A stretch of DNA of 35,868 bases from Rariglobus sp. (lineage in GTDB: Bacteria; Verrucomicrobiota; Verrucomicrobiia; Opitutales; Opitutaceae), in the NCBI GenBank assembly GCA_029266495.1, contig JAQSWS010000053.1, positions 1-35,868 of the forward strand. The letters run 5' to 3'. Made by a program: the position numbers and the translations under genes. Positions 4,743 through 26,046 of the stretch are shown in pieces. A model generated the notes under the pieces. That model saw only the letters and a program-made list of their open reading frames with translations, was not told the DNA's origin and did not search any database. Each line of letters starts with the position of its first letter. Position 1 is the stretch's first letter.

Positions 4743-5259
4743 GATAAGGGAATGACGATGGGGTGAACGTTAGGTATCTCCCCCGGGCAGGCGAATTATT
4801 TACAGGAGCCTGCGATAATTGGCGATTTCAGGGGGCCGGATCGCGGGAGAGCCAGGCGGCGAGGTCGGCGGGGGTGGCGATCGTTTCGCCAAATTGGTAG
4901 TCGCGGTCGAGCAGCGAGGCGTAGGCGGGCTCCAGGAACCGGCGGCATTGGAGGATGACCTTGGCATGCTGGCCGGGGGAGCGCACGAGGCGGCCGAGAG
5001 CTTGATTCACTTTTTGGATACCGGGGACCGACGACCAGGGCGTGGCTGATGCGTCCGCCGAGCGTATCGATGCCCTCCGCGAAACTGCTGCCGAGGACGA
5101 GGAAGAGTGCGTCGGAAAACGCGAGGGATTCGTCGACCCAGGCGGTTTGCGCGGCGAGGTCGGAGAGGCGGGGCTGGAGGGCGGCGCGCAGGTGCGGGTG
5201 GCGTTGGCGAAGGGTGTTTTCGATTGATTCCGCGTAGGCGTAGCTTGGGAAAAAAACCG

Positions 5260-5310
5260 CCACCGCGCGGGGCGCGGTGGAATGACCAATGTTCAATGAC
5301 CAATGACCAA
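5260..5310. repeat. Composite hairpin plus heptad element B (in helicase gene)
   Basis: A perfect 9-bp stem (CCACCGCGC, loop GGG, GCGCGGTGG; 5260-5280) is followed with no gap by AATGACC AATGTTC AATGACC AATGACC (5281-5310). On the coding (minus) strand it is read in frame as SLGHWSLNIGHSTAPRAVA. Confidence 0.8.
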
Positions 5311-5448
5311 GGGATGAAGTGGCGGCGGAGTGGAGGGTGGCGATGGTATCGGCGGTGGTGCCGGCGTGGCGGGCGCGTTGCTGGTAGGTGGTGTCGACGC
5401 GGATGTCGTAAGCGACGTCGTAGGCGTGATCCCGCCAAGGCGTATGCG

Positions 5449-5478
5449 CCGTCACGGACGTGACGGAATGACCAATGG
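5449..5478. repeat. Composite hairpin plus heptad element C (in helicase gene)
   Basis: A perfect 8-bp stem CCGTCACG-GA-CGTGACGG (5449-5466) is directly followed by AATGACCAATGG. It is the shortest copy, with fewer than two heptads. The coding strand reads AIGHSVTSVT. Confidence 0.75.
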
Positions 5479-5522
5479 CGGTGCCGGTGACGCCAGGCTC
5501 GTGACCTCGGCTGCTGTGGGAA

Positions 5523-5554
5523 GGGGCGGCGGGGAGCGGAGTCCCCTCCTTACC
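5523..5554. repeat. GC-rich hairpin repeat inside helicase gene
   Basis: GGGGCGGCGGGGAGCGGAGT followed by CCCCTCC is the second copy of the element at 2210. The stem has compensating changes (GGGGA/TCCCC). The coding strand reads GKEGTPLPAAP, in the same frame as the NYN copy. Confidence 0.65.
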
Positions 5555-6370
5555 TTCGGACAGGCCGCAGGCTTCGGCGAAGGTTGTGGCGGGGCCGGGG
5601 GTGGCAGTGGCGAAGATCACGCCGGCGTAGTCGCGAAGAATTTCGCCAGTGGGAAGGGCGGCGTCGAGACAGGTGAGGCGGAGTTCGCCGGCGCGGGGGC
5701 TCCACACGAGACGCGGAAAGGGCTGGGTGAACCATTCGGCGAGGGCGGGGATTTGCCAGAGGAGTTCGCGGACGGGTTGCTCGATCTGTTCGTAGTCGAG
5801 GGGCGTGAGCGCGAGGGTTTCGGCGAGGTGACGGAGGGCGTCGGCGAGGTCGTCTTCCTGGGCGAGGTCGACCGCTTCGCAGGGCGCCAGCGAGGCAAGG
5901 AGAAGCGTCCAGGTTTCCCACGCCCGCTGGAACGCGGCGGGTGCACGGACGTGGTCGAGTTCGGAGAGGACGCGACGCGCGTCGTCGGCGAAGACGGTGT
6001 GCGAGCGGGCATCGGCGGCGCGGGAGGGAAGGTTGTGCGCCTCGTCAATCACAAGGAGCGTTTCGGCGGGGTTGAAGCCGGGCTGGTTGTAGAAGAGTCC
6101 GCGATTGGCCGGGGCGAAAACGTAGTTGTAGTCGCCGATCCACACATCCTGAAAGGCGAGGGCGGTGCGGGTGATTTCGTAGGGACAGATTTGCGCGGCC
6201 TGTCCGGCGGCGCGGAGGGTTTCAACGTCGCGGGCTTCGTCTTCGAAAAGATAAAAACGGGAGAGACCGGCGCGCGTCCAGCGTTGGGCGACGGACTCGG
6301 GATGGTTGAATTCGCGGCGCTGGCAGAAGCAGACGGGATTGAGGCAATGCTCGTGTTTTGGACGGACGTG

Positions 6371-6422
6371 CCACGCCGCGACCGGCGTGGAATGATCAAT
6401 GACCAATGACGAATGTCCAATG
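6371..6422. repeat. Composite hairpin plus heptad element D (in helicase gene)
   Basis: A perfect 8-bp stem CCACGCCG-CGAC-CGGCGTGG (6371-6390) is directly followed by AATGATC AATGACC AATGACG AATGTCC AATG. The coding strand reads DIGHSSLVIDHSTPVAAW, between Walker A and the Fe-S cysteines. Confidence 0.8.
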
Positions 6423-6482
6423 TCGGCGGCAGGAGCGGGGGCGGACGTTTTCGATTCTTGGGAGGAAGCCGGACCAGCGGTC

Positions 6483-6503
6483 TTGTCACTTATTAAGTGA
6501 CAA
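6483..6503. repeat. GTCACTTA palindrome, copy 1 (in helicase gene)
   Basis: TTGTCACTTA and its exact reverse complement are separated by a single T. The coding strand reads PVCHLISDK in frame. Copy 2 is at 35259-35299. Both copies share the right flank AAACYGGG. Confidence 0.8.
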
Positions 6504-7363
6504 ACCGGGCTTGGGGAGGCGGTCATGGAGCGGAGGGTGCGCAGGACCTGGAGCTGTCCGGTGGCCTTGCTGGTGAGGTAGAGAAGGCGGGCGTAGCGGC
6601 CGGCTTTCATCGCGCCGAGGGCGCATTCGAGGAGCGCGCCGGTTTTGCCGAAGCCGGTGGGGGCGGTGAAGAGGACCCGGGGGTGGCTCGCGAGGGCGCC
6701 GGCGAGGTCAGCTTGCGTGGTCTGCTGGCCTTCGCGCAACTCAGAGAAGGCGGGGCGATAGCGGAGGTTGCGGAGACGTTCGCGGGCGCGGAGACGGAGG
6801 TTGAGGAACTCGGCGACGCGTTCGAGCTGGACGCGGAAGGGGGCTTCGTCGGACGCGGTGAAGACGATGGTCTGGACGAGTCCGCTGCCGGCTTCGACGA
6901 AGACGAGTTCGCCGCGGATTTTTTCCGCCGGGTCGGCGATGCGGCGGAGGGCGAGGTAGGTGGCGAGTTGAGCGAAATAATCGGGATGCGCGGCGCGGAG
7001 GTCCTCCTCGGGCGCGGGGAGCGGGTCGAGGGTGGTTTTTATTTCACGGAGGGTCGCGGGCGCGTGGGGGGAGGCCGGCGGGAGGAACTGGTCGATGCGT
7101 CCGGTGAGGGTGAAGGTCCAGCCGGCGTGGAAAACGCGACCGCTGACGGGCACTTCGAACGTGGCGGCGGGCGTGGTGACGGCGGCGGTGGCGCGGAGTT
7201 CCTGGTGCCAGCGGGTGCCGAGGCGGGCGCGCCAGAGACCTTGGGCGCCGGTGTTGTCGGAGGGTTCACGCGGGCCGATCGTGAACGCGGAGAATTCGCC
7301 AATGCTCAGGGAGGCGGTGCGTTGATCGAGGTCGAATTCCATGCGTGCGCGGGGTCGGAAGGT

Positions 7364-8147: not shown

Positions 8148-8181
8148 AATGACCAATGGCCAATGGCCAATGACCAATGAA
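8148..8181. repeat. Heptad array E, ybeY-recO gap
   Basis: AATGACC AATGGCC AATGGCC AATGACC AATGA lies in the 92-bp gap between ybeY and recO. It has the same orientation as the arrays at 1208, 5281 and 6391. It is preceded by GTGTGG rather than a clean adjoining hairpin. Confidence 0.85.
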
Positions 8182-8205
8182 TCGGCGGATGCGCATGGGG
8201 CGCGA

Positions 8206-12079: not shown

Positions 12080-12173
12080 GAAATGACGAATGACCAATGA
12101 CGAATGTCGAATGTCAGATGACACTGGCATGGAAGGGACTGGTTGCGAATGGGTCATTCGTCATTGGGCATTC
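12080..12173. repeat. Inverted heptad arrays F, HIT-phoH gap
   Basis: A left array (12080-12122; AATGACG, AATGACC, AATGACG, AATGTCG, AATGTC) and an inverted right array (12147-12173) can pair. GAATGACCAATGACGAATG (12088-12106) matches the reverse complement of 12155-12173 at 18 of 19 positions. The right array supplies the last codons (MPNDE) and the stop codon of the HIT gene. Confidence 0.75.
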
Positions 12174-12651
12174 TCGCCGCTTCGGCGGCGAGCCGTTCCC
12201 AAGTGGCTTCGAGGGCTTGGGGGAGGATGCGGGTCTGTCCGAGGACGGGCATGAAGTTGTTGTCGCCGTTCCAGCGCGGAACGATGTGGCCGTGCAGGTG
12301 CGGAATGCTGCCGCCGGACGCGGAGCCCAAGTTGAACCCGAGGTTGAACCCATCGGGTTTCAGGGCGGTTTTCAGGATTTTTTTGCCGAAGGTGATGATG
12401 GCAAAGAGATCGGCGCTCTCGTCCGGCGTGAGTTCCTCGATGTCGGTCGTCTCGCGGAACGGGATGGCCAGCAAGTGCCCCGGATTATAGGGAAACCGGT
12501 TGAGCATCAGGAAGGAAAGGGGACTCCGGTGAACGATAAGGGCGGCGCGATCATCCCCCAAGGCAGGCAACTCGGTGAACGGCCGTTTGAAATCAGGCAT
12601 GCGCGGCGCCTCAATATATTCCATGCGCCAGTAAGGATGGAGCTGCGACAT
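12154..12651 (-). CDS. HIT family nucleotide hydrolase/transferase
   Basis: A histidine-triad protein, probably acting on dinucleoside polyphosphates or other nucleotide conjugates. The catalytic triad region reads HLHGHIVPRW (H-x-H-x-H, about residues 119-128). The N-terminal LHPYWRMEYI matches the 'lwaPWRmeYi' start of the Ap4A phosphorylase-like branch (FHIT/APA2 type). LNRFPYNPGHLLAIPFR is the conserved substrate-pocket segment. I use the ATG at 12651 (MSQLHPYW, 165 residues), because homologues start just before this point; an upstream TTG at 12696 is open but unlikely. The last residues MPNDE are encoded by a heptad repeat, so the original C-terminus may have been replaced. Confidence 0.9.
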   Translation of the reverse strand: MSQLHPYWRMEYIEAPRMPDFKRPFTELPALGDDRAALIVHRSPLSFLMLNRFPYNPGHLLAIPFRETTDIEELTPDESADLFAIITFGKKILKTALKPDGFNLGFNLGSASGGSIPHLHGHIVPRWNGDNNFMPVLGQTRILPQALEATWERLAAEAARMPNDE

Positions 12652-14795: not shown

Positions 14796-15850
14796 CAAGC
14801 TTTTGGAAACAATGGACCGCGACGGTGCCCGCACCGTTTTTGACCGCGCTGCTGCTCGGCGCGGGTTTCATGGGCTTTGTCGCGTGGGACCAGTCGCATT
14901 GGTGGAGCACCAAGGAGGACTACGGATTCGGCTGGCTGGTGCCCGCGTTCGTGGCGTTCGTGGTCCATGACCGCTGGCCGCGCATCCTCGTCGCATTGCA
15001 AGCCTGCGCGGCGCCGGGCAGTCCGCGCGCAACCGGTGCGGCGCAGTGGACGCTTGGGTTTTTATGTTATGCGGCACTGGCCGGCGGGGCGCTGCTGTTC
15101 CTGATCGGCGCGCTTTATCGCGCCGGTGCGGGATCGTCGTATCCAGGCACGCTGGCGCTGTCGCTCGGCACGGGGGTGCTGGTGTTGCCGCTGTTGTTCC
15201 TTAATACGCCCGAACCCACGACGGGGGCGGGAGGCGCGGCACCGGAGAAAGCGGGAGTGTTCTCCGATGCGCGGGTGAGGCTGGTGTCGCTTTTTCTTTT
15301 CCCCGCACTCGTGTGGCTGGTGTCGGCCCCGATGGTGTCGGTCATTGAGAACAACCTCAGTCTCTTCATGCTCAACCGCGTGGCGGCCGTGGTGTTTTTT
15401 GTGTTCGATATCCTCGGGCTGGCCATCGAACAACAGGGCAACGTGCTCAAGCTGCCGACGGGGGATGTAGGCGTGGCCGAGGCGTGCTCGGGCATTCGTT
15501 CCTTTACGGCGTGTTTGTTCGCAGGGTCGTTTCTGGCGGCGGTGTTTCTCGACAAGCTCTGGAAAAAAATCGGGCTGGTCGCCTCGGCGGTCGCTTTTGC
15601 GTTTATCACCAACCTGCTGCGCAGCCTTTTCCTGACCGCGTGGGCCTATAATTACGGTCCCGAGGCAATCGAGGGCAAGGTGCACGATATCGCGGGTTAC
15701 GCGGTGCTGGGCCTCACGGTGGTCGGGTTGTTATGCCTGCTGCCGATTTTCAACCTGAAGTTTGTTTCGTCCGATGACGGCGACCATCACGACGATTCCC
15801 CTGATGGCGCTATTGCGGGAAGTGCGCCGGCCGGAGGCAAGGCGGGCTGA
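14792..15850 (+). CDS. Exosortase/archaeosortase family protein
   Basis: A membrane transpeptidase-like enzyme thought to process proteins with PEP-CTERM-like tails. The 352-residue protein has about eight membrane helices. It carries the three exosortase active-site residues: C232 in EACSGIRSF, R277 in ITNLLRSLF and H298 in KVHDIAGY. The tail after residue 325 is acidic and His-rich (SSDDGDHHDDSPDG). No obvious PEP-CTERM substrate, EPS or PEP-regulator gene is in the window, so targets lie elsewhere. It is tightly coupled to the YjdF-like gene and followed by waaA after 9 bp, fitting envelope assembly. The subtype is not assigned. Confidence 0.92.
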   Translation: MTSFWKQWTATVPAPFLTALLLGAGFMGFVAWDQSHWWSTKEDYGFGWLVPAFVAFVVHDRWPRILVALQACAAPGSPRATGAAQWTLGFLCYAALAGGALLFLIGALYRAGAGSSYPGTLALSLGTGVLVLPLLFLNTPEPTTGAGGAAPEKAGVFSDARVRLVSLFLFPALVWLVSAPMVSVIENNLSLFMLNRVAAVVFFVFDILGLAIEQQGNVLKLPTGDVGVAEACSGIRSFTACLFAGSFLAAVFLDKLWKKIGLVASAVAFAFITNLLRSLFLTAWAYNYGPEAIEGKVHDIAGYAVLGLTVVGLLCLLPIFNLKFVSSDDGDHHDDSPDGAIAGSAPAGGKAG

Positions 15851-25934: not shown

Positions 25935-26046
25935 AAGTAGCGAGTAGTGGGTGGCGAGTAGCCGGGCATGCCCCGGGCTCAGAACCACCTGCTCGTTGCA
26001 ATCTCAGGCTATTCACTACTCGCTACCCGCTACTCGCTACTTTTTT
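25935..26046 (+). terminator. Long imperfect hairpin with T-run, pstB-phoU gap
   Basis: The arms at 25937-25961 and 26016-26040 pair at 23 of 25 positions (GTAGCGAGTAG..., CTACTCGCTAC). The pairing extends by AA/TT, and TTTTTT follows at 26041-26046. Each arm is itself a 14-bp-period repeat of GTAGCGAGTAG. The phoU ATG is only 4 nt after the T-run. It is probably a terminator or a strong 5' UTR structure. Confidence 0.7.

Follow-up and report, generated by a model that had tools for sequence, protein, structure and literature searches.

Three hairpin–heptamer elements in a helicase gene

How did perfect hairpins, each running directly into tandem heptamers of the AATGACC type, come to lie inside a helicase gene of Rariglobus sp. 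(Opitutaceae), and do they mark a mobile element, a selected structure or a trace of DNA copying? The window that raises this question, by which we mean the whole analysed stretch of 35,868 nucleotides (contig JAQSWS010000053.1), holds an ORF of 848 residues on the minus strand (4796–7342), in which DEAD_2 (residues 363–450) and Helicase_C_2 (residues 690–779) both score above the Pfam cut-offs. Direct reading bore out the three elements that an earlier sequence-only reading had reported within it. The first comprises a hairpin with a perfect 9-bp stem and a 3-nt loop (5260–5280; CCACCGCGC-GGG-GCGCGGTGG), followed by four units (5281–5308; AATGACC AATGTTC AATGACC AATGACC). In the second, a perfect 8-bp stem with a 2-nt loop (5449–5466; CCGTCACG-GA-CGTGACGG) precedes two units of the AATGACC type, the latter degenerate (5467–5480; second unit AATGGCG); in the third, a perfect 8-bp stem with a 4-nt loop (6371–6390; CCACGCCG-CGAC-CGGCGTGG) precedes five AATGACC units (6391–6425). 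The starts and stems agree with those given earlier, whereas the tails of the second and third elements had been drawn 2–3 bases short. All three lie on the plus strand and are read through in frame by the minus-strand ORF, as had also been proposed.

At the second site, the outer (5′) arm of the hairpin is similar to the coding sequence of array-free genus mates, and the 8-bp stem compares with a 9-bp stem of different sequence in the relative G009. Inspection by eye revealed AGCTCC-type repeats at this site in G002, G012 and G007, and CTCAGG-type repeats adjoining a hairpin in G010 and G001. The third hairpin overlaps the conserved TPVAAW codons of the helicase, and an imperfect version of its stem is already present in genus mates without the array. 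ACCGTCC-type repeats precede the conserved blocks of the first and third sites in a family member (L054, G022). Separately, the ORF appears frame-shifted near residue 780 (window ~5000–5030), and in several genus mates the match to its last residues sits in a different frame from the remainder; the shift may be an assembly error or real.

The helicase elements are accompanied by further arrays in the window. Two arrays of five AATGACC units lie on the plus strand, one without a hairpin and with a minus-strand ATG 6 nt past its end (1208–1242), the other without a perfect stem (8148–8182); a plus-strand array of six AATGACC/AATGACG units (12082–12123) has no hairpin either. On the minus strand, three AATGACC-type units (12152–12172) are directly preceded by a hairpin with an 8-bp stem (12173–12192; CTCGCCGC-CGAA-GCGGCGAG). 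Of the seven AATGACC arrays in the window, four thus carry a perfect stem of 8 bp or longer. The pattern AATGAYCAATGAYC with at most one mismatch has 14 matches in the window against 0.04 expected, a number reached in none of 100 shuffles. Another heptad array, of the ACTCGCT/GCTACTC type, is located at 26008–26041.

Hairpins adjoin heptamer arrays across the genome

The genome to which the window belongs (4.89 Mb) contains 135 matches of GGAATGACCAATGACC with at most two mismatches, against none for a reversed-pattern control; it holds many dispersed arrays of one tandem 7-nt motif. Our sample from this genome consists of 68 distinct AATGACC arrays of at least two units each, drawn from the first 100 of these matches plus added loci, which were selected by a GG prefix, so that hairpin and GG frequencies are both inflated. 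A junction stem was scored if it was perfect, at least 7 bp long, had a loop of 2–8 nt and ended exactly at the first base of the array. Such stems are present at 22 of the 68 arrays, where about 0.1 array is expected (the per-position background in the window is 112/71,596, or 0.0016), and none of 2000 mononucleotide shuffles of the 40 upstream nucleotides exceeded 2/68; the coupling first proposed from the helicase gene withstands this control. At the opposite array end, a perfect stem of 7 bp or more is found in 1/68.

The position of the stem is also constrained. Moving the stem end from offset −6 to +2 yields 1, 2, 4, 5, 7, 15, 22, 2 and 1 stems of at least 7 bp, and none of the 68 arrays scores at −7 and beyond or at +3 and beyond; the counts taper around offset 0, since a single palindrome may score at several adjacent ends. 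The first 25 sites, selected by the GG prefix, include 15 with a junction stem of at least 7 bp, and a stem accompanies 15/32 GG-prefixed arrays and 7/36 of the remainder. If one bulge or mismatch is permitted, 30 of the 68 arrays score, at a background of ~1% per position. The perfect stem of at least 7 bp is absent from 46/68 arrays and is found in only three of the nine arrays with six or more units. The hairpin–array coupling is a genome-wide, non-random pattern of fixed order and phase.

Anatomy, strand and reading frame

In the orientation that reads AATGACC, each element runs from the outer arm through the loop and the inner arm into the AATGACC units. Across 49 hairpins from the genus, the loop measures 3 nt in 29, compared with 61 of 319 background hairpins of the source genome. 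These 49 stems have no consensus common to all; 41 begin with CC and 18 with CCGCGC, the largest class of 6-nt starts, a sharing that arises partly because many loci were selected by the GG prefix. A stretch of 437 kb of the source genome, picked around arrays, contains 555 maximal perfect hairpins; the four bases that most commonly follow them are AATG (19), then TTTT (11). Seven of the 49 stems come directly after TGA, TAA or TAG, and crude gene calls place the arrays of C146 and C100 in the space between convergent genes.

Of 52 arrays in 23 regions of the source genome, 48 have AATGACC on the G-rich strand, a bias confounded with gene orientation and read against crude gene calls; since most genes in several such regions lie on the opposite strand, the effects of gene direction and replication are entangled. 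In G016, a family member assembled as one contig, the minus strand carries all 20 listed places at 0.11–1.98 Mb and the plus strand all five listed at 2.20–2.64 Mb, and later places include four plus and two minus; the GC skew of this genome reverses near 2.07 Mb and a second time between 4.2 and 4.5 Mb.

Where arrays are read, they translate as GHWSLVI. GGTCATT repeats are free of stop codons and AATGACC repeats contain TGA, so the in-frame orientation is the one that stop codons allow. On the GGTCATT strand, an ATG follows 4–21 nt past the array in 14 of 43 arrays with a stem below 5 bp (background 0.205) and in none of the 22 whose stem has 7 bp or more.

Distribution among relatives

In G009, junction stems of at least 7 bp occur at 15 of 47 arrays and of at least 6 bp at 19, with none of at least 6 bp at the opposite end (0/47); all six of its arrays with six or more units carry a stem. 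Stems of at least 6 bp were likewise found in G002 (4/13 arrays), G005 (2/6) and G012 (2/4), and none in G008 (0/16), G006 (0/3) or G004 (0/1); at the opposite array end, no genus mate examined has a stem of this length. The genus genomes compared are ~75–90% identical.

Of 120 family genomes, 29 contain arrays. In G016, 5/35 arrays have a junction stem of at least 6 bp and none has one at the opposite end; among 142 arrays with three or more units from family and viral loci combined, six have a junction stem, and two of these are genus loci met before. Among the 80 loci listed by a scan of named genomes, exact junction stems of 6 bp or more number three: L113 has two and L143 has one, both loci being from Verrucomicrobiota. 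Cyanobacterial arrays, of which there are many among these 80, include none. One scan of viral contigs (61 stretches) gave a single junction stem of this length, in L335. Hairpins that resemble those of the source genome and carry AATGACC or AATGACG are found in L143, L301 and the viral contig L335. For other heptad families, a stem of at least 6 bp lies within 4 nt of the array end in 9/90 arrays (by family 6/69, 2/9, 1/8 and 0/4), too few for extending the hairpin coupling to them.

Several further features of these genomes were noted in passing. A REP-like palindrome around CCCTGAGC-GTGA-GCTCAGGG (L240:61–100) has many exact 26–28-bp matches in G001, G002 and G007. In G016, the arrays of five loci (L420, L438, L440, L444 and L445) lead into a common stretch, TGGCGCG..TAGCA, which in four of them is followed by a GTAG-type palindrome (taacccgccctacc), and both arms of a long palindrome in L443 (~15640–15702; GGTCATTTGCGGCGCG-CGCCAG-CGCGCCGCAAATGACC) contain the heptad. 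At L018, L019, L028 and L212, the array stands just before similar prepilin-like N-terminal peptides (GGFALLIT). The contigs of L258 and L274 (G009) end in or right after arrays of 17 and 18 units; long arrays therefore probably disrupt assembly, and their number is underestimated.

Hairpins accompany arrays at eight coding-linked sites

Orthologous places in genus mates were located for eight sites of the source genome, all in or beside coding sequence. At places scored as empty, a stem of at least 6 bp is found in 5/52, compared with 8.9% of random windows, and three of these five stems fall at a single site; "empty" is here a script label, one row being a run of N and some holding repeats of a different heptad family or what is left of a degenerate array (for example G010 and G011 at C96_5038). 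Where an array is present, the proportion is 9/16, or 8/16 on a stricter count that drops G009 at hel5280, whose pairing extends into the array; G004 and G006 are near-identical at hel6390. At these eight sites, the hairpin accompanies the array.

Traces of the host sequence remain in some stems. One arm resembles it, clearly or partly, at four of seven sites: the outer arm at hel5466 (similarity 0.76, compared with 0.53 after shuffling) and C37_7447 (0.88, compared with 0.51), the inner, array-side arm at C96_4118 (0.80), and both arms in part at hel6390. At hel5280, C96_5038 and C37_1031, a host arm is not recognisable.

An explanation to which we give about an even chance is that the heptads are heptamer simple-sequence arrays and that the hairpins were written alongside them by template switching during replication. 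The heptads belong to a genome-wide family of such arrays, and the hairpins would not be part of any conserved element. In a short-range switch at the replication fork, the growing strand would fold back through a tight turn of mostly 3 nt, copy neighbouring DNA as its reverse complement and rejoin at the array edge; fold-back copying with rejoining there would produce a perfect, site-specific stem that touches the array. Stems would afterwards decay through point mutation or be rewritten by a further switch, and selection would retain arrays in the stop-free orientation and, where a hairpin is present, away from start codons. The data directly show the junction and its one-sidedness, the bias in loop length, the lack of hairpins at empty sites, the replacement of stems from one species to another and the strand bias; we infer the switch itself, its direction and the reason for rejoining at AATG.

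The order of events might instead be reversed, with arrays added beside pre-existing hairpins, for example terminators after a stop codon. The seven stems that directly follow stop codons, the arrays between convergent genes at C146 and C100, and the array-free G010, which already has a 6–7 bp version of the stem at 6371–6390, are all in line with such a choice of target. Stems at the empty-scored places are nevertheless at background level (5/52), at eight coding-linked sites that are not terminators, and we regard this order as unlikely.

Arrays stay in place and stems change

Thirty-one of the 68 arrays have an orthologous array in another genome of the genus (47 pairs); being common to orthologous places, the arrays look old and appear to stay put. 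This bears on the proposal of the sequence-only reading that hairpin and heptad tail constitute a mobile palindromic element family. Such a composite would move jointly, possibly by means of an IS200/IS605-like or REP-type transposase. The 18 of 49 stems that start with CCGCGC, the similar hairpins in L143, L301 and L335, and the G016 arrays that abut a GTAG-type palindrome would fit a composite of this kind. Most stems, however, differ from site to site, and the occurrence of arrays does not follow that of the transposase: Y1_Tnp is found in 11 of 13 genus genomes, including all five without a GGAATGAYSAATG match, but was not found in G005 and G012, which have six and three GGAATGAYSAATG matches. 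The proposal is not supported by this comparison, and we consider joint movement quite unlikely.

That reading had also held that pairing rather than sequence is conserved. When stems of at least 7 bp from the source genome are projected onto 21 orthologous arrays, 117 pairs are unchanged, 6 show compensatory and 35 one-sided changes, 1 pair is lost on both sides and 16 are gapped; a stem of at least 6 bp exists in only 10 of the 21, some of different sequence. This comparison does not look like steady selection for pairing, and it does not support the earlier claim. A hairpin kept for a role in RNA or DNA, such as translation, termination or mRNA stability, could still account for the ten stemmed orthologues and for the avoidance of start codons (ATG after the array in 0/22 compared with 14/43). 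The excess of one-sided over compensatory changes (35 to 6) speaks against it, as does the scatter of the hairpins, which occur within signal-peptide codons, within codons in the middle of the helicase and in 3′ gaps, may precede or follow the array in the transcript and have no position in common; we rate such a role as distinctly improbable. Stems can also change on both arms: in the signal-peptide gene of C37 and the same array in G009, TCATCGGCGGCGA-GGA-TCGCCGCCGATGA and TCGTCGGGGGCGG-CGG-CCGCCCCCGACGA are both 13 bp long; three of their base pairs are changed in both partners, and none in one partner alone.

Candidate machinery

None of Y1_Tnp, RVT_1 and Ku tracks array counts across the 13 genus genomes. 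RVT_1 is found in four of them and has no match in the source genome, which weakens reverse transcription as a source. Ku is found in five and was not found in the array-bearing G002, G004, G005, G006 and G012, which weakens Ku-dependent end joining. Apart from this, G002 has 31 RVT_1 matches, many of them near-identical.

These searches also concern the idea that an enzyme extends the 3′ ends of fork hairpins with AATGACC, hairpin and array being made in one reaction. It would account for the fixed phase and contact, the one-sidedness, the tight loops and the strand bias, and for the stems at all six G009 arrays of at least six units; but the searches yielded no candidate enzyme (RVT_1 has 0 matches in the source genome), only three of nine arrays of this length in that genome have a perfect stem, and arrays elsewhere lack hairpins; we regard the idea as very unlikely. 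A dedicated, loosely telomerase-like activity on single-stranded DNA, building heptads with lineage-specific motifs on the 3′ ends of fork hairpins, is the most improbable reading of all; if it were true, a repeat-adding system would have left scars in genes, signal peptides and gene ends, with a lineage-dependent motif (AATGACC here; AGCTCC-, CTCAGG- and ACCGTCC-type in the helicase of relatives, some beside a hairpin).

Template switching has difficulties of its own. Taken alone, it leaves the end of the stem at AATG and the preceding GG unexplained, and the CCGCGC start of 18/49 stems exceeds the sharing expected from local copying. Nor does it alone account for the absence of hairpins from cyanobacterial arrays with this motif. 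None of the 16 arrays of G008 has a stem of 6 bp or more (0/16); in the source genome, 46/68 arrays are without a perfect stem of 7 bp or more, and the host arm is unrecognisable at three of seven sites.

Relation to known repeats and hairpins

Several bacterial groups show an excess of heptamer repeats; those of cyanobacteria are called STRRs. The arrays described here resemble these repeats in their 7-nt units, few copies per array and many dispersed arrays, in that many arrays stand just before start codons, in a motif common to unrelated phyla and in having no known spreading mechanism. The same holds for the TAACTGA repeats of Beggiatoaceae (PMC4679880) and the GGGAATC repeats of Xanthomonas (PMC4692102); the TAACTGA study of 2015 sees no evident mechanism (PMC4679880). 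Unlike those repeats, as the excerpted accounts portray them (PMC4679880; PMC4692102), the arrays studied here have an attached hairpin that is frequent, one-sided and tri-looped. Our searches of the open-licence literature on repeats, REP elements and template switching yielded no description of hairpins attached to heptad arrays. The statement that no description had been published is therefore upheld for the coupling within those searches and fails for the heptamer repeats themselves: the arrays are of an already known kind, and their coupling to hairpins is apparently undescribed.

Template switching is described as creating and repairing perfect stems (PMC8794818) and as homogenising the arms of short inverted repeats within genes (PMC8604942). 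On the template-switch explanation, the hairpins studied here would share with such quasipalindrome mutations, as these reports outline them, one-step perfect stems derived from neighbouring DNA and arm homogenisation in genes, and they are like template-switch hairpins in that stems are not above background at orthologous empty-scored places (5/52 compared with 8.9%); unlike the hairpins here, the template-switch mutations outlined there are not known to be tied to one flanking repeat motif. REP elements with GTAG or CGTC tags are reported to have a tag on one side, stems of 5–13 bp and loops of often 2–3 nt (PMC3733652). A short hairpin with a tag on one side is common to both, judging from that summary of REP elements (PMC3733652), but here AATG rather than GTAG or CGTC stands directly at the stem, the stems have no overall consensus and, unlike REP and IS200/IS605 systems, occurrence does not track Y1 transposase genes. 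The Rickettsia palindromic elements, to which the helicase elements had been likened, are introduced in the same source as a family with a conserved palindromic sequence (PMC3733652). The likeness extends to being read in frame inside genes and ends there, the stems of Rariglobus being site-specific and lacking such a sequence. Palindromes in coding sequence have also been described in the mitochondria of Nematomorpha (PMC6649704).

Taken together, the pattern looks more like a recurring accident of DNA copying than like a jumping element. The fixed, tri-looped junction, the strand bias and the hairpin-free empty sites offer a physical handle on the origin of heptamer repeats. In the helicase and signal-peptide genes, repeats and palindromes have been absorbed into working proteins, and two-arm changes in such genes would be misread as selected RNA structure.
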